From positions 1 to 21,561 of the IMG/VR virus record IMGVR_UViG_3300044645_001693: a DNA stretch of 21,561 bases; one strand, 5' to 3'. Position 1 is the stretch's first letter; each line of letters opens with the position of its first letter. Below, piece by piece: positions 1,526-8,741 of the stretch. This DNA comes from a virus. A model generated the notes under the pieces. The model did no database searches. It saw only the letters and a program-made list of their open reading frames with translations, and was not told where the DNA came from. The position numbers were made by a program, and so were the translations under genes.

Positions 1526-2094
1526 TTACTTACAATTAAATACAAAGCATTCCCGTTGCTATTTTCGTTTCCCATTGTTTCAATATACTTATATTCGTCC
1601 GTGTGCTTTATGTCTCTTATTGCGTTCTGTATAACCGTTGCCTGTTCATCTGCTAAAGTAAATGTCATTTGCTGAAATGGTTCTTTGTCGCCCTCAGGCA
1701 AAGTAAAATCTTCGTCAAAATCTTCGGGTCTGTCAAACTGCGGTATATCCAAACCCCACGCTTCCAAGTCCACAACCTCCCAATCATTCGCCAACGTGTC
1801 CCAGTCCCATTCACCAAATGCTACATTGTCCGCAATAATAAATCGTTTCTTTTCTTCCTCGGTTAAATCGCTGCTTTGTTTTACCCATGCCTCGTCAATG
1901 TCATTAAATCCAAGTTCCTGTAAAGCCCTTAGTCTCATGTTGCCTCCAAGCACTACATTGTTTTCATCAATGACCATAGGGCGAAGGGAAAGCATCTTTG
2001 GAAACTCCGTAATACTTTGCTTTAGCTTTTGAAACTTGTCATCCCTGAGAACCCGTGGGTTGTTTGGGTTCGGTTTTATATCCTTTAATTTCAT
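1504..2094 (-). CDS. ParB/sulfiredoxin-like nuclease-domain protein
   Basis: The 196-residue protein has a ParB N-terminal (ParBc) domain: KPNPNNPRVLRDDKFQKL (residues 7-24) followed by VVLGGNMRLRALQELGF (about 47-63), where GGNMRLRAL is the family's GGERRLRA nucleotide-binding box. In phages this domain is commonly found alone or fused in front of adenine methyltransferases. Here the frame ends without any methyltransferase motif, so it is the stand-alone type. The C-terminal half is acidic (about residues 100-150), and could be a partner-binding or DNA-mimic-like region. It lies directly before the Mom-like gene, with a 4-nt overlap to the glycosyltransferase upstream. Role in modification, packaging or replication control is open. 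Confidence 0.85.
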   Translation of the reverse strand: MKLKDIKPNPNNPRVLRDDKFQKLKQSITEFPKMLSLRPMVIDENNVVLGGNMRLRALQELGFNDIDEAWVKQSSDLTEEEKKRFIIADNVAFGEWDWDTLANDWEVVDLEAWGLDIPQFDRPEDFDEDFTLPEGDKEPFQQMTFTLADEQATVIQNAIRDIKHTDEYKYIETMGNENSNGNALYLIVSKWAEQRK

Positions 2095-3098
2095 ATAGCG
2101 TTTAATACGTTTATCCTTAATTCATTCACCTTAACCAAGTCCCTTTCTTCCTTGAGCCATTTGCGTCCAGCCTCTAAGTCAACAAAGTACGCATCATCTT
2201 TGTCTAAAGCCTTAGTAAATTTGTGGATTAAATCTAATTCGTTTTTATAAGTCCTCACCCCAGCGATGTTAAATTCCTTGATTTCCTCAGGTGCGTATGA
2301 AATACAACCAGCTACCAACATTTCCATCGCAAAGTTATTTGACTTCGCTTGATTGAAATTGTCAATCGTCAATGGGAATACGCCATAATGTGGCGCTGAG
2401 TGTTTGACCATTTCAAAATATTGGAACAATGAATTATTCCACGGCACAATAATTGCTTTGGGGTATAATGTTTTACCGAGCCAATCGGCTAAACCAACCA
2501 TACCTAATTCAACCTTATCGTTTTTTTGTAACTCAATCCAAAAGTTTTTTACCGTTGCAAGGTCTTCCAGGTGCGTTTGAGATCCGCGCCACATAACTCG
2601 TTTCTTTGCGTCCATTAACTTATCCCTTTTTACAGGCTGCATCGGTGTAACGGTAAAGTCAATGGCGTTGGGAACAACGGTTATTTTATCTTTATCGTAA
2701 AACTGGGCGTAAAATTCTTTTAGGTACGGGGTTGAGGTCATAACCCAATCAGCGTATTTGAAAGCCTTTTCGACTGACTCCTTTACCTGAGGCTTGTTAA
2801 AATGTTGGCTTGCTGGGTTGGCTGGACTTACCTCATGTAGCAGGTCGTCATGGTCTAAGATAATCTTCTTACCCATTCGCTTTACCTCGTTAATCATGCC
2901 AAGTAAATCGTTACCATTAGCACGCTGGAAGATAACAACATCAACGTCGTAAAAATCATACCACTTAACGGTATCAGGGTTAATCATCTTTATTACAAAG
3001 TTCGAAGGGCAAACCTCCCGAAGCCTAATAAATGGATTAACCGTGCGATAGTAGTCAGTAGTTGGGCTGCTTAAATTACAAACAATGCCAATCCTCAT
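2091..3098 (-). CDS. GT-B fold glycosyltransferase (GT4-like)
   Basis: This 335-residue protein reads as a retaining GT-B glycosyltransferase. The N-terminal half opens with a Rossmann strand (MRIGIVCNL) and contains KKIILDHDDLLHEVSP (76-91), then WVMTSTPYLKEFY (about 117-129) and VVPNAIDF (about 140-147). These are the substrate-domain strands and the hinge typical of GT4 proteins. The second domain begins at RVMWRGSQTHLEDL (168-181), and its nucleotide-sugar site probably includes KSNNFAMEMLVAG (about 250-262), the degenerate form of the E-x7-E region. It would transfer an activated sugar to an unknown acceptor. Neighbours on the same strand are another glycosyltransferase-like protein, a methyltransferase and a sugar aminotransferase, so it probably belongs to a decoration pathway. 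Confidence 0.75.
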   Translation of the reverse strand: MRIGIVCNLSSPTTDYYRTVNPFIRLREVCPSNFVIKMINPDTVKWYDFYDVDVVIFQRANGNDLLGMINEVKRMGKKIILDHDDLLHEVSPANPASQHFNKPQVKESVEKAFKYADWVMTSTPYLKEFYAQFYDKDKITVVPNAIDFTVTPMQPVKRDKLMDAKKRVMWRGSQTHLEDLATVKNFWIELQKNDKVELGMVGLADWLGKTLYPKAIIVPWNNSLFQYFEMVKHSAPHYGVFPLTIDNFNQAKSNNFAMEMLVAGCISYAPEEIKEFNIAGVRTYKNELDLIHKFTKALDKDDAYFVDLEAGRKWLKEERDLVKVNELRINVLNAI

Positions 3099-3265
3099 TT
3101 ATTTTTACTTTTGTAGGTATCTAATAAAACTTCCAATACCGCTTCCATAGAATGCTTTTTCCCTGTTGCCTTCCACAAATCAAATTGAATGTCAAGCAGC
3201 CTTTCCCTTATAACCTTGTTTCTGAAGGTTACCCCGTACATTTCTTGAGGTTTTGTTGTGTTCAT
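3095..3265 (-). CDS. Small hypothetical protein
   Basis: I do not recognise this 56-residue basic protein. The start chosen is the ATG at complement(3263..3265). A longer frame from a TTG at 3286 is possible, but that codon lies inside a good promoter box (TATATTTG, complement 3284..3291), so the ATG is preferred. The sequence is predicted helical in its second half (RLLDIQFDLWKATGKKHSME, residues 25-44), vaguely like small DNA-binding or antitoxin-type proteins, but no fold can be claimed. It overlaps the downstream glycosyltransferase by 4 nt (ATGA), which supports it being translated. Confidence 0.55.
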   Translation of the reverse strand: MNTTKPQEMYGVTFRNKVIRERLLDIQFDLWKATGKKHSMEAVLEVLLDTYKSKNK

Positions 3266-3283
3266 TTTTTTTAAATTATTATA

Positions 3284-3291
3284 CAAATATA
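3284..3291 (-). promoter_or_regulatory. Bacteroidota-type -7 element inside the left operon
   Basis: The minus strand reads TATATTTG, an exact match to the Bacteroidota TAnnTTTG -7 box, in a very AT-rich gap between two genes. Transcription would start about 14 nt before the ATG at 3265. No clear -33 TTTG box is seen upstream, so the site is a candidate secondary promoter for the ParB, Mom and terminase genes. Confidence 0.4.
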
Positions 3292-3294
3292 ATA

Positions 3295-3999
3295 TTATTT
3301 TTTTAAAATTGGGGAAATAAATCCGCGTTCACCCTCGGACACAAACATTGAATGCCTGTATGTCTTTGACAAATAACCGATTGGCACTTTATTATCAGTG
3401 CAATACTTCATTAACGGGTGTACCGTGTTGTTCCAATTAAAAATATCAATCCATTTATCTGGTGAATAAACTTCGCCTTCGCGGTTTAAATCAACCAATG
3501 ATAAATCGAACTTACCACCAATCTTATCAAGCATAGAAGGTTTAAAGAACTCACACGAACCCCGAAGCCAACCAACAGGATCACCGCAGGAATTGGAAAG
3601 GATTTCCCAAGCGCCTCCCATAAAGTGAATGATGTTCCCGAACCATTTGTAATTATGTATAAAATTGTCATCATGCGTAAAAAGAAGCAAGTCGTAATCT
3701 TTGTAATTATGTTCTTCCAGCCATTGGTTAGAACAACCCCAATCGCCAACCGTGTTCGGGTATTCTTTATAATTCCAGCCTAAGTCTTTAATCTGCTCAA
3801 TGGTTGCAATTTCTTTGTAAAGAATTGTATCCAATTCTTTTATTGCCAAATCCTTTTTTTCCTCGTATGAATACTTTGGGTCACGGTGTGAGATACAAAA
3901 TAAATCATACGTCCAATCTTTGACAACGATTTGCCTTGCCACTGATTCATAAAAATCTAAGGGAAAGTGCCAACCTGAGGCGACAACGGCTAATCTCAT
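3295..3999 (-). CDS. GT-A-like glycosyltransferase-type protein
   Basis: The 234-residue protein is probably a nucleotide-sugar-dependent transferase of the GT-A type. It opens with a strand and loop (MRLAVVASGWHF). Near the middle it has YDLLLFTHDDNFIHNYKW (about residues 99-116), where the hydrophobic strand followed by HDD resembles the metal-binding DxD site. Further on come GGAWEILSNSCGDPVGWLRG (128-147) and a PDKWIDIFNW segment that resemble acceptor-side loops. It overlaps the methyltransferase gene upstream by 4 nt and lies in the same glycan-type cassette. No signal peptide or membrane segment is present, so it acts in the cytoplasm. The family call is by pattern only. Confidence 0.55.
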   Translation of the reverse strand: MRLAVVASGWHFPLDFYESVARQIVVKDWTYDLFCISHRDPKYSYEEKKDLAIKELDTILYKEIATIEQIKDLGWNYKEYPNTVGDWGCSNQWLEEHNYKDYDLLLFTHDDNFIHNYKWFGNIIHFMGGAWEILSNSCGDPVGWLRGSCEFFKPSMLDKIGGKFDLSLVDLNREGEVYSPDKWIDIFNWNNTVHPLMKYCTDNKVPIGYLSKTYRHSMFVSEGERGFISPILKK

Positions 4000-4535
4000 A
4001 GGAGTAGGGATAAAGAAGGAAAGTCCTCGTTAATTGTAATAAAGTTTATTCCCGATGAATTGATAGGCTGGAAGTCTTTCATCCATTCGACCTTGTCCCT
4101 TTCCTTGCTACCACCTTCAAACAAGATTGAGCCGTTTAAAAAATGGTATTCCTTTAAACTTTTTAAATACTTTAAATGTCCAGCATGGTTGCTTATATCA
4201 AAGTGCATTAAATCAAAAGGTTCTGGTTTCCAATTATAAAAATCCAATTCAATCAATTCAATATATTTTGTTAAGCCAAGTTGGTCGATGGTGTTCTGTG
4301 TTTTATCCATCGACGTATTTTTATACGGGTACTTTTGCCAAAGGTCATGACACATGATGACGGTATCGCTATCTAAGTCCCTTAACGCTTGAGCCATTGC
4401 GACGGCAGAATAACCGTGCAACGTGCCAAACTCAAGTATTACAGAGGGATTCATAGTAAGCACCGTGTTATAAAGAGTCTTACCAATTTTATTCTTATAA
4501 TAACTTGAGGGTATATCGTAATTATAATATGCCAT
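3996..4535 (-). CDS. Class I SAM-dependent methyltransferase-like protein
   Basis: The 179-residue protein has the class I methyltransferase layout. Motif I is VILEFGTLHGYSAVAMA (residues 32-48), with the acidic residue and glycines that bind S-adenosylmethionine. A second strand, VIMCHDLW (about 59-66), ends in the acidic residue that contacts ribose, and PFDLMHFDIS (about 107-116) fits motif IV. It is closest in layout to the Methyltransf_24/cephalosporin-hydroxylase-like group, often found in sugar-modification clusters. It starts on the stop codon of SSB (TAATG) and overlaps the next gene by 4 nt. The substrate is unknown; a sugar hydroxyl or amino group is likely given the neighbours. 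Confidence 0.65.
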   Translation of the reverse strand: MAYYNYDIPSSYYKNKIGKTLYNTVLTMNPSVILEFGTLHGYSAVAMAQALRDLDSDTVIMCHDLWQKYPYKNTSMDKTQNTIDQLGLTKYIELIELDFYNWKPEPFDLMHFDISNHAGHLKYLKSLKEYHFLNGSILFEGGSKERDKVEWMKDFQPINSSGINFITINEDFPSLSLLL

Positions 4536-4918
4536 TAGAAAGGAAATTCTGATTCTGGTTTAAATGTGGTTTCTTCTGTTACTTTTTGATTCTCCCCTGT
4601 CGTTGGCTTACCTCCAAATTCAAGGGAATTAACCATACACCTAATGACAGCTTCGGCTGCTCCAGTATTTTTATTAAGGTATCCATTTACCCCGCCTGTT
4701 CCTTCTACGACAACATAAGTACCTTTTAAAATATGTGGCGCAAGTTTGACACCACGCTCACCCCAAATTGAGCAAGTAACCCAAATCGTCTTTTCTCCTT
4801 GCACTTGACCGTAAACCCTTTCAGTGTGTGCTACGGAAAAAGAACAAACGGTATTATCACCGACATTTTTTACCTCAGCGTCCTGACCGACGCGACCACT
4901 TACAATTAACTTAATCAT
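4535..4918 (-). CDS. ssb: Single-stranded DNA-binding protein
   Basis: The 127-residue protein is a bacterial-type SSB: one OB fold followed by a short tail. Its N-terminus, MIKLIVSGRVGQDAEVK (residues 1-17), is the family's first strand. VCSFSVAHTE and the conserved tryptophan strand TIWVTCSIWGERG (about 44-56) follow, then the LKGTYVVVEG strand. The tail ends ESEFPF, which mimics the acidic DDDIPF tip used to recruit replication partners. The start chosen is the ATG at complement(4916..4918), overlapping the aminotransferase stop as TGATG. An upstream TTG at 4924 would add only two residues. It is odd that a replication protein sits inside a run of sugar-modifying genes. Confidence 0.92.
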   Translation of the reverse strand: MIKLIVSGRVGQDAEVKNVGDNTVCSFSVAHTERVYGQVQGEKTIWVTCSIWGERGVKLAPHILKGTYVVVEGTGGVNGYLNKNTGAAEAVIRCMVNSLEFGGKPTTGENQKVTEETTFKPESEFPF

Positions 4919-6027
4919 CACCAACCTTTTTTTATCTGTTTAACAATATATTCCCTGTCCTCGTCCGTTACCCACCAACCGACTGGAAGACTGGACAACT
5001 TGCCAATCACCTTATCAATGTTTGGTAGTTCTGTTTTAAATTGCTTTACACATGGGTGTAAATCGTTCCGCTCATGTACCTGAGAAGTCATTACACCCCT
5101 ATCTTTCATTGCCCTTTGAAAATTGTCCCTGTCCTCAACCAAAATAGAAAATATCCAATAAGACGAACCAGAATCAAACGCCAAAGTATTTATTTTTGGC
5201 TCACATTCATTTAACCACCAGTCGTAAAAACCAGCGTTATTTTGGTGTCTTCTAATGTTATCGCCAAATATTTTTAGGTTCTCAATCCCGATGGCGGCGT
5301 TGATGTCGTTCATGTGGAATTTATACCCCCAATCGTTTATCGGTGCTTCACACCTAAAGTCCTTCCTGTCACCTTCACGGTCAATGCCATACCACCGAAG
5401 TAACTTTGCCTTTTTGTATTCATATTCCCCTGGCAAGATTAAAATTCCACCGTCACCCGTGGTAAGGTGTTTTATTGCTTGAAAGGAAAAGCAACAGTAA
5501 TTTCCTGAGTTACCAACCAACGTACTTTCGTCTTTAGTGGCTGGTAATTCGTAATATGAGCCGAAAGCGTGGGCACAATCCTCAATTATATCAAGCCCCG
5601 TTAATGACTTTATTTTCTTTACGTCTGCTGCTGCACCTCCCCAATGCACAACCATAACCGCCGCAACCAAAGGAGTAACAGATTTTGCCACCGACAAAGG
5701 ACAAATATTTAATTTGTTAGGGTCAATATCTGCCCAAATGATTTCAAAACCAGCCGCAAGTATCGCCCAGTTGGTTGCAGTGCAAGTCAACGGGGTTGAT
5801 ATAATATATTTCTTTTCGGGGTGTTTGTCCTTAATTAACCTTAAAGCAAGATGCAAAGCGCTTGTCCCTGAGTTGACTGTAACAAGGTAAGGATTATTGA
5901 AGCTTTGTTTTAATTGGCGTTCAAATTCCTCAACGACTTCGCCTTGACCGATAAAGCCTGAGGATAAAACTTTTTCCACGGCTTTTGATGCCTCTGGATT
6001 CATGGCAACTTTAAATAATGGTATCAT
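4918..6027 (-). CDS. DegT/DnrJ/EryC1/StrS-family PLP sugar aminotransferase
   Basis: This 369-residue protein is full length for the DegT family, cytoplasmic PLP enzymes that aminate keto-sugars linked to a nucleotide. The phosphate-binding VNSGTSAL (51-58), IIEDCAHAFG (147-156, with the aspartate that pairs with the PLP ring) and the Schiff-base segment FSFQAIKHLTTGDGG (180-194, lysine 186) are all intact. The C-terminal part carries the usual GYKFHMNDINAAIG (233-246) acceptor loop. It is one of the clearest genes here. Placed between two glycosyltransferase-like genes and a methyltransferase, it probably makes an amino sugar for the same pathway. Overlaps by 4 nt with the upstream gene show co-expression. 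Confidence 0.95.
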   Translation of the reverse strand: MIPLFKVAMNPEASKAVEKVLSSGFIGQGEVVEEFERQLKQSFNNPYLVTVNSGTSALHLALRLIKDKHPEKKYIISTPLTCTATNWAILAAGFEIIWADIDPNKLNICPLSVAKSVTPLVAAVMVVHWGGAAADVKKIKSLTGLDIIEDCAHAFGSYYELPATKDESTLVGNSGNYCCFSFQAIKHLTTGDGGILILPGEYEYKKAKLLRWYGIDREGDRKDFRCEAPINDWGYKFHMNDINAAIGIENLKIFGDNIRRHQNNAGFYDWWLNECEPKINTLAFDSGSSYWIFSILVEDRDNFQRAMKDRGVMTSQVHERNDLHPCVKQFKTELPNIDKVIGKLSSLPVGWWVTDEDREYIVKQIKKGW

Positions 6028-6725
6028 TTAATGTGGTTTGCATGGTTTATAAAATATTTATTCCCCTCGTTTTCAAAAGGCGTCCCGATATATTTTGAAC
6101 AATTACCTTTTAGGATTGCAACCTTTATTCTTTCCTCATAGTTCCAAAGGATAAAAGGAAAAGAAATCTGGTCACGGCTGGAAAACTTGCATACTTGTTC
6201 AAACCAAGCTAAACCAAAATCAATGGTAATTTGATTTACCTTCCTGATATAGCAACCCATTTCATAAAGCCCAAAATAAGGCGGCATTCCAACAGATTGA
6301 TAAAAATTCATTTGGCTTTTTACAAGGTCTTCATTGTCTAACTTTGCCTCAAGAACGGCGGCTATTTCTTGATATAAACAACGTCTTTGCGCGTGACGGA
6401 AAACATACAAATCAGCGTCGCCGTATTCCTCAATAATTTCTTCGGGGTGCATTGCCAGTTGATGTGTTCCATCATGCCATATAATGTAATCGAAGTCAAT
6501 GTTTAAAGCCTGTGGAATGCAAAGTATCTTTTCAGCCTTCGCGTTGCGTCTGTGCCTTAACGGGTCAATCATACTAAACTGGTGATTTTGGACTTGATTC
6601 CAAACATTTAGGTCATGGTTAACTTCATCGACAAAAGCGACGTAAGTGCAATTATCAAAAGTCGTCTCAGGGTCAACCAGCACGTCTTTGTTTCCAGTAA
6701 TTGAGGTAATAATCAAATAGTTCAT
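6024..6725 (-). CDS. DUF616/TOD1-like glycosyltransferase
   Basis: The 233-residue protein resembles the DUF616 (TOD1/MUCI70-type) glycosyltransferase domain. Visible parts are a first strand with TSITGNKD (residues 7-14), a segment with an aromatic/arginine cluster DPLRHRRNAKAEK (54-66), and FDYIIWHDGTHQL (77-89), where the strand ending in W-H-D-G occupies the donor-site place of the family's W-x-D-x motif. ADLYVFRHAQRRCLYQE (103-119) and RDQISFPFILWNYE (184-197) match the conserved later blocks. It is the first gene of the left minus-strand operon. The promoter box ends only four bases before its ATG, so the messenger is probably leaderless or nearly so. Confidence 0.62.
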   Translation of the reverse strand: MNYLIITSITGNKDVLVDPETTFDNCTYVAFVDEVNHDLNVWNQVQNHQFSMIDPLRHRRNAKAEKILCIPQALNIDFDYIIWHDGTHQLAMHPEEIIEEYGDADLYVFRHAQRRCLYQEIAAVLEAKLDNEDLVKSQMNFYQSVGMPPYFGLYEMGCYIRKVNQITIDFGLAWFEQVCKFSSRDQISFPFILWNYEERIKVAILKGNCSKYIGTPFENEGNKYFINHANHIK

Positions 6726-6793: not shown

Positions 6794-6797
6794 TGGC

Positions 6798-6859
6798 GCA
6801 AGGTGGTGTAAATGGAAACATTTGAGCAATCAGATATAGGTTCGAATCCTGTCCTTGCT
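6798..6859 (+). tRNA. tRNA-like element with a tetraloop in place of the anticodon arm
   Basis: The RNA folds as a tRNA cloverleaf with one arm replaced. The acceptor has six pairs (GCAAGG 6798-6803 with CCTTGC 6853-6858). U8 and G9 follow. The D arm is GTGT/ACAT (6806-6809, 6818-6821) around a loop containing GG. The T arm is ATAGG/CCTGT (6836-6840, 6848-6852) with the classical loop TTCGAAT. Between the D and T arms there are only 14 nt; they form TTGA-GCAA-TCAG (6822-6833), a short hairpin closed by a GNRA tetraloop, so no anticodon exists. No CCA is encoded (TCAA follows the stem). It cannot decode; a degenerate tRNA or a tRNA mimic are the options. Confidence 0.5.
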
Positions 6860-6937
6860 CAACTAAGGTAGAAATATGAGAATCCTGAATTGTACACAAA
6901 ATATCCATATTGACAGCACGGACAGACGGCATTTTTA

Positions 6938-7076
6938 GCAAGGTGGCGAAATGTAGACGCTCAACTTAAAATAGAGGACTCAGCAATGTTGGTTAGTGGC
7001 TGAACACCTTGTTTAAGAAGATAAATGACCTATACCAACTAAGGCGGTCATGCTGGTATCGAATCCAGCCCTTGCA
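6938..7076 (+). tRNA. tRNA-Leu(UAA)-like element with a large insertion
   Basis: The 5' part follows tRNA-Leu: acceptor GCAAGG (6938-6943), U8-G9, a D arm GCG/CGC with TAGA in the loop (6946-6960), and an anticodon-type arm CTCAA/TAGAG (6960-6976, one A-A mismatch) with loop CTTAAAA, i.e. anticodon UAA. The 3' end also fits: T arm GCTGG/CCAGC (7052-7069, loop of 8 nt containing TCGAAT) and acceptor CCTTGC (7070-7075) with A as discriminator. Between them are 75 nt rather than a normal 15-20 nt variable arm, holding hairpins TCAGC/GCTGA (about 6980-7002) and ATGACC/GGTCAT (7025-7051). An alternative acceptor pairing AGCAAGG (6937-6943) with CCTTGTT (7007-7013) exists. Too short for a group I intron. 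Function is uncertain. Confidence 0.42.
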
Positions 7077-7095
7077 CAATTAAAAAAAGTAAAAA

Positions 7096-7119
7096 TGTAA
7101 ATAATATTTTGTAATTTTG
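7096..7119 (+). promoter_or_regulatory. Early promoter P0 with TGTAAATAAT box
   Basis: TAATTTTG (7112-7119) matches the TAnnTTTG -7 box. A TGTAAATAAT box starts at 7096, exactly 16 bp upstream of the -7 box, the same spacing as at 9796/9812 and 13896/13912. Transcription is expected to begin at about 7124-7126, the first base of the three-hairpin RNA. Confidence 0.55.
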
Positions 7120-7123
7120 TATT

Positions 7124-7225
7124 GTTCTTTTGAATCAGGTAGGAGCGATTCAAAAGAGTTTTGGGACAATATCCGCATTGTTTCACTTAGCCAATGAACT
7201 CCTACTCATTGGCTATTTTTATTTT
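7124..7225 (+). ncRNA. Three-hairpin structured RNA with complementary loops
   Basis: Immediately after promoter P0 the transcript can form three consecutive hairpins with almost no unpaired linker. H1 pairs 7126-7136 with 7147-7157 (11 perfect pairs, loop AGGTAGGAGC). H2 pairs 7162-7170 with 7177-7185 (9 pairs, two of them G-U). H3 pairs 7188-7197 with 7206-7215 (10 pairs, loop ACTCCTAC) and is followed by ATTTTTATTTTAT. GTAGGAG in loop H1 (7139-7145) is perfectly complementary to CTCCTAC in loop H3 (7199-7205), allowing a 7-bp kissing interaction. It is either a free small RNA of about 100 nt or the leader of the HNH gene at 7232. I do not recognise it as a named RNA family. Confidence 0.55.
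7188..7222 (+). terminator. Terminator-like third hairpin before the HNH gene
   Basis: The 10-bp stem 7188-7197/7206-7215 with an 8-nt loop is followed by a U-rich run (ATTTTTATTTT), so it can act as an intrinsic terminator or attenuator. It ends only about 10 bp before the ATG at 7232, so transcripts of the early operon must read through it. Pairing of its loop with the loop of the first hairpin could influence this. Confidence 0.5.
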
Positions 7226-7231
7226 ATCAAA

Positions 7232-7717
7232 ATGGCTAAAGAAATTCAGTTAACACAGGGAAAAGTTGCAATCGTTGACGATGAGGACTTTGATTATTTA
7301 AATCAGTTTAAATGGTTTGCAAATTTACAAGGTAAAAAATTTTATGCAGGAAGAAATATTACAATGTTTAATGGCAAGCGAACTATGCTTTGGATGCATA
7401 GATTTATAATGAATCCTGAAAAAGGTATGGTAATTGACCATTTAGATGGCAATCCTTTAAATAATCAAAAAAATAATCTTAGAATATGCACTCATGCAGA
7501 AAACATGAGAAATTCTAAAATTAATAAAAATAATAAAAGTGGACACAAAGGTGTTTACTGGAATAAAATATCTTCAAAATGGATGGCTTATATTAAATAT
7601 AATAATAAATTATTGTATTTAGGATATTTTCCCGTACTTATCGACGCCGCCCGTGCTTACAACGATGCTGCTTTAAAGTATCATGGAGAATTTGCTCACA
7701 TTAATAAAATAGATTAA
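7232..7717 (+). CDS. HNH homing endonuclease with AP2 DNA-binding domain
   Basis: The 161-residue protein is an HNH-AP2 endonuclease. The first 45 residues form the common N-terminal strand region. The HNH core runs from the histidine in WMHRFIM through VIDHLDGNPLNNQKNNLR (about residues 69-86), including the DH-DGN-LNN pattern, to ICTHAENMRN. A C-terminal AP2 domain follows: SGHKGVYWNKISSKWMA (about 103-119), YLGYFPVLIDAARAYNDAA, and a final AHIN. These enzymes cut DNA at a specific site and spread their own gene. The ATG at 7232 is preferred to a TTG at 7130, because the longer frame would run through the three-hairpin RNA and adds nothing conserved. It is the first gene of the early region. 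Confidence 0.87.
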   Translation: MAKEIQLTQGKVAIVDDEDFDYLNQFKWFANLQGKKFYAGRNITMFNGKRTMLWMHRFIMNPEKGMVIDHLDGNPLNNQKNNLRICTHAENMRNSKINKNNKSGHKGVYWNKISSKWMAYIKYNNKLLYLGYFPVLIDAARAYNDAALKYHGEFAHINKID

Positions 7718-7718
7718 A

Positions 7719-8741
7719 ATGGATTTTTCTTTTAACATTGAATTCGCAAAAAGATACGGAGTTGACGAAGCTATAATGGTTAAATCATTTCAATTCTGGA
7801 TAAGGCTTAATAAAGCAAATAAAACAAATTATCATGATTTAAGGTATTGGACTTACAACACAAATAAGTCACTAACTGAATATTATCCATTTTGGACTGA
7901 AAAACAAGTTAGAAGGATTATTGAATCATTGGTTGATAAGGAAATTTTAATAAAAGGTAATTATAATAAAATTGCCTATGATAGAACTATTTGGTACGCG
8001 TTTATGAATGAAGATTTATATCTATCAGATAATTTCCATCTTGAGGAAATTGGAGATTACCAAAAGGTAAATACCATTTTACCAAATGGGCAAATGGAAA
8101 ATACCAAACAGTCAAATGGAATTTCACGAAAGGGCAAACCTATACCAGTTGCTAACCAAGTACTAAATACATTTACTAACTCAGTTAATATTAAAAATCT
8201 TTCAGATTTTACTTCATTCGAAAAAATTACAATTGAAGATTCTCAAAGTTCCAAAGTAAATCCTTTTACCGTGATTTCTAATTTGCAAGGAGAAAAAGAA
8301 GAAAAGAAAACTTCGGGCAAAAGAAAAGAAGAAAGCGAGCCTAAAGCCGAGCGAAAGCCGAATCCGACATACGAAGCCTTTACCGTGTTCTGCCAAACAT
8401 TTGAGCAATTATCAGGCGCGGCGTATCCCACGGATCAAAAAGGAAATTACATAATGAGTCCCAAAGATGCTGGAGGCATGGTGTATTTGTTGCGGTGGAT
8501 TGAAAAAGTTGATCGGAATAACGACACAAACGAAGCTTTAAAAGTATTTTTGCAAGCCGCCTGGAGCCTGCCTGACAAATGGTTAAAAGCCAATTTTACC
8601 CCACCCATTTTATACGGACAGGCAAACAAAGTTTATACGGCTTACCAGACTTCGTCCCCAGCGGCAAAGAAAAAGGCGTATGACGATGAAGTTGATAGGC
8701 TACTTGCTGAGTATATACAAACTTTAAAACAAACACAATAA
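7719..8741 (+). CDS. Phage replication protein, DnaD/replisome-organizer-like
   Basis: The 340-residue protein has an N-terminal winged-helix-type region common in phage replication initiators: MDFSFNIEFAKRYGVDEAIM (1-20), YHDLRYWTYNTNKSLTEYYP (39-58), then WTEKQVRRIIESLVDKEIL (60-78) as the recognition part and YDRTIWYAF (about 88-96). A low-complexity, lysine- and glutamate-rich linker lies around residues 185-215. The C-terminal part (about 218-330) is predicted helical and could be the DnaD-like or helicase-loader-contact domain. It would melt or mark the origin and recruit a helicase. It starts 1 bp after the HNH stop. Exact family is inferred from the N-terminal pattern. Confidence 0.65.
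   Translation: MDFSFNIEFAKRYGVDEAIMVKSFQFWIRLNKANKTNYHDLRYWTYNTNKSLTEYYPFWTEKQVRRIIESLVDKEILIKGNYNKIAYDRTIWYAFMNEDLYLSDNFHLEEIGDYQKVNTILPNGQMENTKQSNGISRKGKPIPVANQVLNTFTNSVNIKNLSDFTSFEKITIEDSQSSKVNPFTVISNLQGEKEEKKTSGKRKEESEPKAERKPNPTYEAFTVFCQTFEQLSGAAYPTDQKGNYIMSPKDAGGMVYLLRWIEKVDRNNDTNEALKVFLQAAWSLPDKWLKANFTPPILYGQANKVYTAYQTSSPAAKKKAYDDEVDRLLAEYIQTLKQTQ

Follow-up and report, generated by a model that had tools for sequence, protein, structure and literature searches.

A 21,561-nt (21.6-kb) IMG/VR virus record, hereafter the window, carries between a promoter and an early gene a compact RNA element of 3 adjacent hairpins, the first and third of which have loops complementary over 7 nt, and this complementarity is maintained in related phages while the loop sequences themselves change. 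We regard the three-hairpin fold together with its loop-loop (kissing) helix as virtually certain, and give about even chances to the reading in which the element is a cis-acting 5′ leader that would set the readthrough of its own intrinsic terminator. Judging from its sequence and its relatives, the element is a new structured-RNA family and a so far undescribed putative control element. In the window, the 3 hairpins (12, 9 and 10 pairs) lie between a Bacteroidota-type promoter on one side and a U tract with an open reading frame (ORF) for an HNH-AP2 protein on the other, as follows:

7112–7119, + strand: Bacteroidota −7 promoter box, TAATTTTG, recognized by sequence
7125–7158, + strand: hairpin I, 12 pairs (7125–7136/7147–7158) with a loop of 2+7+1 nt (7137–7146), located at the expected transcription start
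7139–7145, + strand: loop I half of the kissing helix, GTAGGAG, 100% Watson-Crick with 7199–7205, 7/7 pairs covarying
7162–7185, + strand: hairpin II, 9 pairs (7162–7170/7177–7185), a spacer hairpin with a variable loop
7188–7215, + strand: hairpin III, putative terminator stem, 10 pairs (7188–7197/7206–7215) with a loop of 1+7 nt (7198–7205)
7199–7205, + strand: loop III half of the kissing helix, CTCCTAC, Watson-Crick with 7139–7145
7216–7225, + strand: U tract of the putative terminator
7232–7717, + strand: downstream ORF, HNH_3 and AP2 endonuclease (PF13392, PF00847), its ATG 16 nt past stem III
7719–8741, + strand: DnaD-like replication initiator, second gene of the transcription unit

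The promoter and the 3 back-to-back hairpins are present as described in the initial annotation, except that the hairpins hold 31 base pairs rather than 30. Together with the ring closed by the 2 loops, they occupy nearly every base of the element. The minimum free energy is −32.6 kcal/mol, compared to a mean of −17.5 (sd 3.4) for shuffled sequences (z = −4.5), none of 200 of which folded equally well. GTAGGAG and CTCCTAC are exact reverse complements; for a single sequence, we estimate the chance that loops of 10 and 8 nt match over 7 nt at roughly 5 × 10⁻⁴ (8 register pairs/4⁷).

Homologues were collected by using the replication protein encoded at 7719–8741 as a scan query, which yielded 31 loci, nearly all with a homologous RNA. 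Pattern scans, the first of which was too loose and returned mostly noise, and a covariance model built on 25 copies then widened the set beyond these loci to 52 distinct copies, 51 of them complete, in about 45 related IMG/VR phage contigs, and a search of whole records added 2 further copies (L373:2949 and L372:929–1026). With the covariance model, complete true matches score at least 44 bits. The next match below them (38 bits) is a copy truncated at the end of its contig; echoes of hairpin I on the reverse strand score up to about 35 bits. When 2.9 Mb of sequence was searched with a sequence-independent descriptor of the layout, it matched at 50 unique places, of which all but 2 belonged to the covariance-model set; 2.65 Mb of block-shuffled sequence gave no match. 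The layout is nearly constant across copies: stem I spans 12 positions with a loop of 2+7+1 nt, stem III mostly has 9 to 12 pairs with a loop of 1+7+0 nt, the linker between hairpins I and II measures 2 to 6 nt and that between II and III mostly 1 to 5 nt. The 7-mer of loop I begins at an offset of 14 nt from the element start in 49 copies and of 13 nt in L011 and L025. On stereochemical grounds, these loop layouts would suit a kiss in which the paired strand would continue the 3′ arm of each stem, leaving 1 to 2 nt to cross the deep groove. Each contig holds 1 or 2 copies of the element. In one 40-kb record (G008), similar copies lie near both ends (L373 2949–3043 and L374 1234–1328).

Comparison of the copies settles the kissing helix at the level of sequence. 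The seven-base complementarity noticed in the window proved exact and recurs in 51/51 complete copies, always over 7 or more contiguous Watson-Crick pairs and at constant places in the loops, with 16 different 7-mers and neither a G-U pair nor a mismatch. On a 28-row alignment, 196/196 cells of the helix are Watson-Crick and 56 are changed on both sides, with all 7 pairs affected, whereas controls with slid registers are only 26% to 46% paired. At least 24 compensated pair changes are needed to link all 16 loop sequences, which is very strong covariation for so short a helix. L013:3471 and L163:1069 differ at 6 of 100 positions, all 6 making up three compensated pairs, and represent a natural compensatory mutant. 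The natural codes also include GTAGCAG with CTGCTAC, which departs from the helix of the window by one compensated pair. Of the 2 copies found later, L372:929–1026 has a perfect loop match and L373:2949, with 6 pairs and an A·C, the only imperfect one, so that the rule of matching loops is strong but not absolute. The stems covary as well, and a check for covariation in relatives, which had been suggested together with the original description, came out in favor of the structure throughout, the loop changes being compensated: hairpin I is paired in 94% of cells with compensatory changes at 7/12 pairs, hairpin II in 81% with such changes at 5 pairs, and hairpin III in 94% with such changes at 10/10 pairs.

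The stems contain 67 G-U and 17 A-C cells, a bias which places selection on the + strand transcript, that is, apparently at the RNA level. A DNA-level palindrome or protein-binding site was considered and rejected, since 16 sequences cannot be one protein site and the stems tolerate G-U four times more than A-C. The suggestion that the loops might contact ribosomal RNA through AGGAG and CUCCU was likewise abandoned: the loops change to 15 other 7-mers, most of which lack such a motif, while the mutual match is kept. The stacking energies of the 16 loop helices cluster at −13.2 kcal/mol (sd 0.86), compared to an sd of 1.99 for column shuffles (P about 10⁻⁴); since this test counts related codes as independent, the result is an indication, not proof, that the strength of the loop helix is tuned.

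A TAnnTTT box ends 4 to 7 nt before the element in 52/52 copies, and 5 or 6 nt before it in 48, which puts the expected transcription start at the base of hairpin I, in line with the start originally proposed next to this hairpin. Shortly upstream of the −7 box, the window has a TGTAAA-type motif (gtaaaaatgtaaa, 7089–7101) which is found at the same place in many copies and is possibly a candidate site for a phage regulator. At the other end, a run of at least 5 T within the 20 nt preceding the start codon accompanies 28/28 genes preceded by the element compared to 5.9% of 290 other genes of the same loci, whose starts are instead preceded by A-rich sequence. The U tract thus belongs to a terminator rather than to the usual start-site context, as anticipated when loop III was described as sitting on a terminator-like stem, and we rejected the alternative of a translation signal on the same grounds. 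Hairpin III has a mean energy of about −14.5 kcal/mol, is among the strongest terminator-like sites and, by its sequence, is very likely an intrinsic terminator. In 48/51 copies, the start codon follows stem III by 13 to 20 nt, which leaves no room for another promoter, so that the gene would be expressed only by polymerases passing the terminator. A promoter, a structured leader, an intrinsic terminator and a start codon directly behind it are, as far as sequence can tell, the general signature of a cis-regulatory leader, and the loop pairing is placed where it could act on termination before the early operon, as had been proposed.

A specific tie to the HNH gene, also part of the initial annotation, did not withstand comparison. 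The proteins encoded downstream form 8 groups (ParB/methyltransferase, 15 copies; replication initiator, 13; HNH-AP2, 13; a 93-residue protein, 4; and others, among them small unrelated genes), so that HNH-AP2 genes follow only 13/51 copies, and an HNH-specific element was rejected. HNH relatives from loci without the replication gene (L355–L363) have no copy. The homologue of the DnaD-like initiator is directly preceded by its own copy in L048, L200 and L214, and in L372 the HNH gene and the replication gene are each preceded by a copy, the two differing in code; in the window, only the copy before the HNH gene is present and none precedes the replication gene. Given the 8 downstream families and the two-copy arrangement of L372, the element is a portable promoter-leader module. 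Within L372 (record G014; 314–1026, − strand), a unit of promoter, leader and HNH-AP2 gene is directly followed by the second promoter-leader with the replication gene, an arrangement reminiscent of a single mobile cassette made up of HNH gene and leader. Collectively, the comparative evidence demonstrates, in terms of sequence conservation, the 3 stems, the kiss, the order of promoter, leader, terminator and gene, and the portability between genes.

We favor control of termination in cis because the order of promoter, leader, terminator and start codon is fixed, the terminator loop takes part in the conserved kiss, and the element is portable between genes. Transcription would start at the foot of hairpin I, and the polymerase would make hairpins I and II and then the terminator hairpin III, whose loop (1+7 nt) would be fully paired with that of hairpin I (2+7+1 nt). 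The resulting 7-bp loop-loop helix would tether the terminator and, because the linkers flanking hairpin II are too short for a straight stack of hairpin I, kiss and hairpin III, strain the base of the terminator, thereby setting the share of polymerases that read into the early genes. Polymerases that do not pass would release a compact transcript of about 95 nt. We infer that termination takes place in vivo and that the kiss lowers rather than raises it; the sign of this effect, a possible trigger and a possible action of the ~95-nt RNA in trans are all conjectural. No antiterminator stem exclusive of the terminator appeared in single-sequence or consensus folds, and the kiss itself may take this role. 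If the kiss does set terminator readthrough, the element would be a ligand-free, sequence-programmable terminator switch, for which 16 natural variants, including near-isogenic pairs differing solely by compensated changes, are ready for testing.

Geometry leaves some latitude. By a rigid-rod estimate, which agrees with the linker stretching proposed for the guanidine-IV riboswitch, a straight stack of hairpin I, kiss and hairpin III in the window needs 80.6 Å, compared to a reach of about 62 Å for the linkers and hairpin II. Closure without opening pairs was obtained for 12/48 cases with a straight stack, 26/48 with a 60-degree bend and all with 90 degrees. Instead of the terminator being strained, the weak base of stem I could fray, and since, on paper, hairpin III can form together with the kissing helix, the kiss could just as well stabilize the terminator. 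The latter would turn the element into a strong attenuator, in which the kiss raises termination through faster nucleation of hairpin III until some factor opens it. This fits a loop III (1+7 nt) shaped to kiss with stem III formed and the coexistence of stem pairing and kissing in every copy; we nevertheless hold it to be very unlikely, as the only studied RNA of this layout, the guanidine-IV riboswitch, is an ON switch when the kiss forms.

Other readings place the function in the RNA itself or in contacts between molecules. The main product could be a nuclease-resistant ring, either a stable ~95-nt small RNA or a shield for the 5′ end of the early mRNA, in which case termination would not be switched. 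A promoter box ending 4 to 7 nt before hairpin I leaves almost no single-stranded 5′ end, the hairpins and the ring take up nearly all bases, and the terminator would release a discrete RNA; a stable free RNA, which the initial annotation had also raised, is thus possible. However, the 13 to 20 nt to the start codon (48/51 copies) and the variety of downstream genes fit a leader better than a small-RNA gene, and a pure stabilizer needs no terminator U tract before a gene, so that we regard such a product as the principal function as unlikely, if still deserving attention. Pairing of loops between molecules into a multimer, as in the packaging RNA of phi29, would be served by the complementarity of loops between identical copies, by the covariation of their letters and by a geometry that disfavors a straight intramolecular kiss, but for a leader of early and replication genes, present in 1 or 2 unlike copies per contig and not located beside packaging genes, we find it extremely improbable.

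The diversity of loop sequences raises the question of recognition between leaders. The released RNA might act in trans by pairing through one loop with a nascent leader of the same type, exerting feedback on expression while unlike types are ignored, which would resemble immunity or incompatibility groups such as those of the P4 CI RNA and plasmid copy-number RNAs. The 16 loop sequences with strict self-match, the frequent location of copies before replication-initiator genes, the strain that short linkers put on intramolecular pairing and the precedent of the P4 CI RNA (PMC4825925) speak for this scenario. All contigs with 2 complete perfect copies also carry 2 different sequences, but this pattern is expected from code frequencies alone. 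Furthermore, the loops change at about the pace of the remaining sequence of the element and not clearly faster, which leaves diversifying selection on them unsupported, and no integrase was found in 20 records, which thus give no sign of lysogeny. The own 7-mer occurs elsewhere in the loci 10 times compared to 22 expected, but a permutation test on long records was not significant (P = 0.058), and avoidance was dropped as an argument. We therefore consider action in trans quite unlikely. Slightly harder still to credit is that the loops are private, heritable 7-letter codes that restrict each leader to recognizing RNA with the same code as itself, in cis and perhaps also in trans. If true, this would amount to sequence-typed feedback on replication and modification genes and to RNA-defined incompatibility between co-infecting relatives.

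The surroundings of the element have peculiarities of their own. Between the leader and a divergent operon, the window contains 2 tRNA-like sequences with GCAAGG acceptor stems, one of 64 nt (6797–6860; 29.5 bits with the Rfam tRNA model, missed by ARAGORN) and one resembling tRNA-Leu/Ser with a long insert (6938–7078). The corresponding place in relatives holds tRNA-Tyr genes or tRNA-like ones whose anticodons have 2 or 4 nt (L372 1158–1232, L032 3263–3357 and L026 2558–2652), and the tRNA-like sequences could be odd or frameshift-type phage tRNAs. The leftward operon of the phage includes, at 2091–6725 (− strand), a cluster of glycosyltransferase-like genes and a DegT/DnrJ aminotransferase, which suggest phage-encoded sugar synthesis or glycosylation. 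A Mom-family DNA modification gene lies at 686–1525 on the − strand (PF25680, E = 7 × 10⁻⁴⁶); a tRNA-Gly called by ARAGORN at 713–787(−) falls inside this ORF and is probably spurious.

The carriers look like virulent and uncultured phages, and their host would be Bacteroidota, an assignment based on the promoter type only. Little is known of how transcription is controlled in the phages of this phylum. Searches of Bacteroidota genomes returned a copy in 0/21 and 0/395 genomes, a weak result as the search of 395 scored only 10 candidates per genome and had no positive control, and the INPHARED phages gave only a chance-level match. As already noted in the initial annotation, the element matches no named RNA family: no Rfam 15 model reached its gathering threshold over the element, where the chance hits scored far below it, and the window gave only the tRNA-like hit at 6797–6860. 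Literature searches, in which subscription journals were mostly not covered, yielded no description of this RNA.

Several known RNAs share individual features with the element. RNA I and RNA II of ColE1 also have fully paired 7-nt loops, but on two RNAs from opposite strands, whereas the phage element has both on one strand and in one RNA. The packaging RNA of phi29 is likewise a phage RNA with complementary loops whose letters covary; it forms an intermolecular ring on the portal, whereas the element precedes early, replication and DNA-modification genes rather than packaging or portal genes. The c4 antisense RNA of phages P1 and P7 (RF01695) is a phage leader RNA controlling termination via complementary segments, and the element gave no match to RF01695 in the Rfam search. 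The put RNA of HK022 and the EAR/epsC leaders modify the polymerase to pass distant terminators. They resemble the element in being folded nascent leaders that act on polymerase readthrough, putatively so in the case of the element, whose terminator is its own third hairpin rather than a distant one. The epsC motif has a predicted pseudoknot (PMC2864571). In P4, the CI RNA pairs with seqA and seqC of its own leader, leading to termination (summarized in PMC4825925). Like the element, the P4 and P1/P7 systems involve a short RNA derived from a phage leader whose transcript contains mutually complementary segments, and they control termination before early or replication genes, which is the putative role here; they differ in that a processed antisense RNA acts in trans, whereas the element pairs 2 loops of one ~95-nt leader that ends in an intrinsic terminator.

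The guanidine-IV riboswitch (GGAM-1/mepA motif) is likewise a 5′ leader in which the loop of an upstream hairpin kisses that of an intrinsic terminator, with a U tract close to the start codon and portability between unrelated genes, the latter having been used as an argument for cis regulation in the work on guanidine-IV (PMC7736828). There, the kiss was proposed to stretch the linker and block the outer terminator pairs, resulting in readthrough (PMC7736828), and a single-molecule study retains this interpretation (PMC11611296). No Rfam riboswitch family, guanidine-IV included, matches the element even at E-values up to 5. In contrast to guanidine-IV, the kiss of the phage element is a full 7-bp Watson-Crick helix whose letters change freely, conserved ligand-pocket nucleotides are lacking, as all 7 loop pairs change, and the element has an extra hairpin II and occurs in phages. 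If its kiss does set readthrough, the element would also bear on a question posed by guanidine-IV, namely by what means readthrough can arise from a kiss involving the terminator stem.
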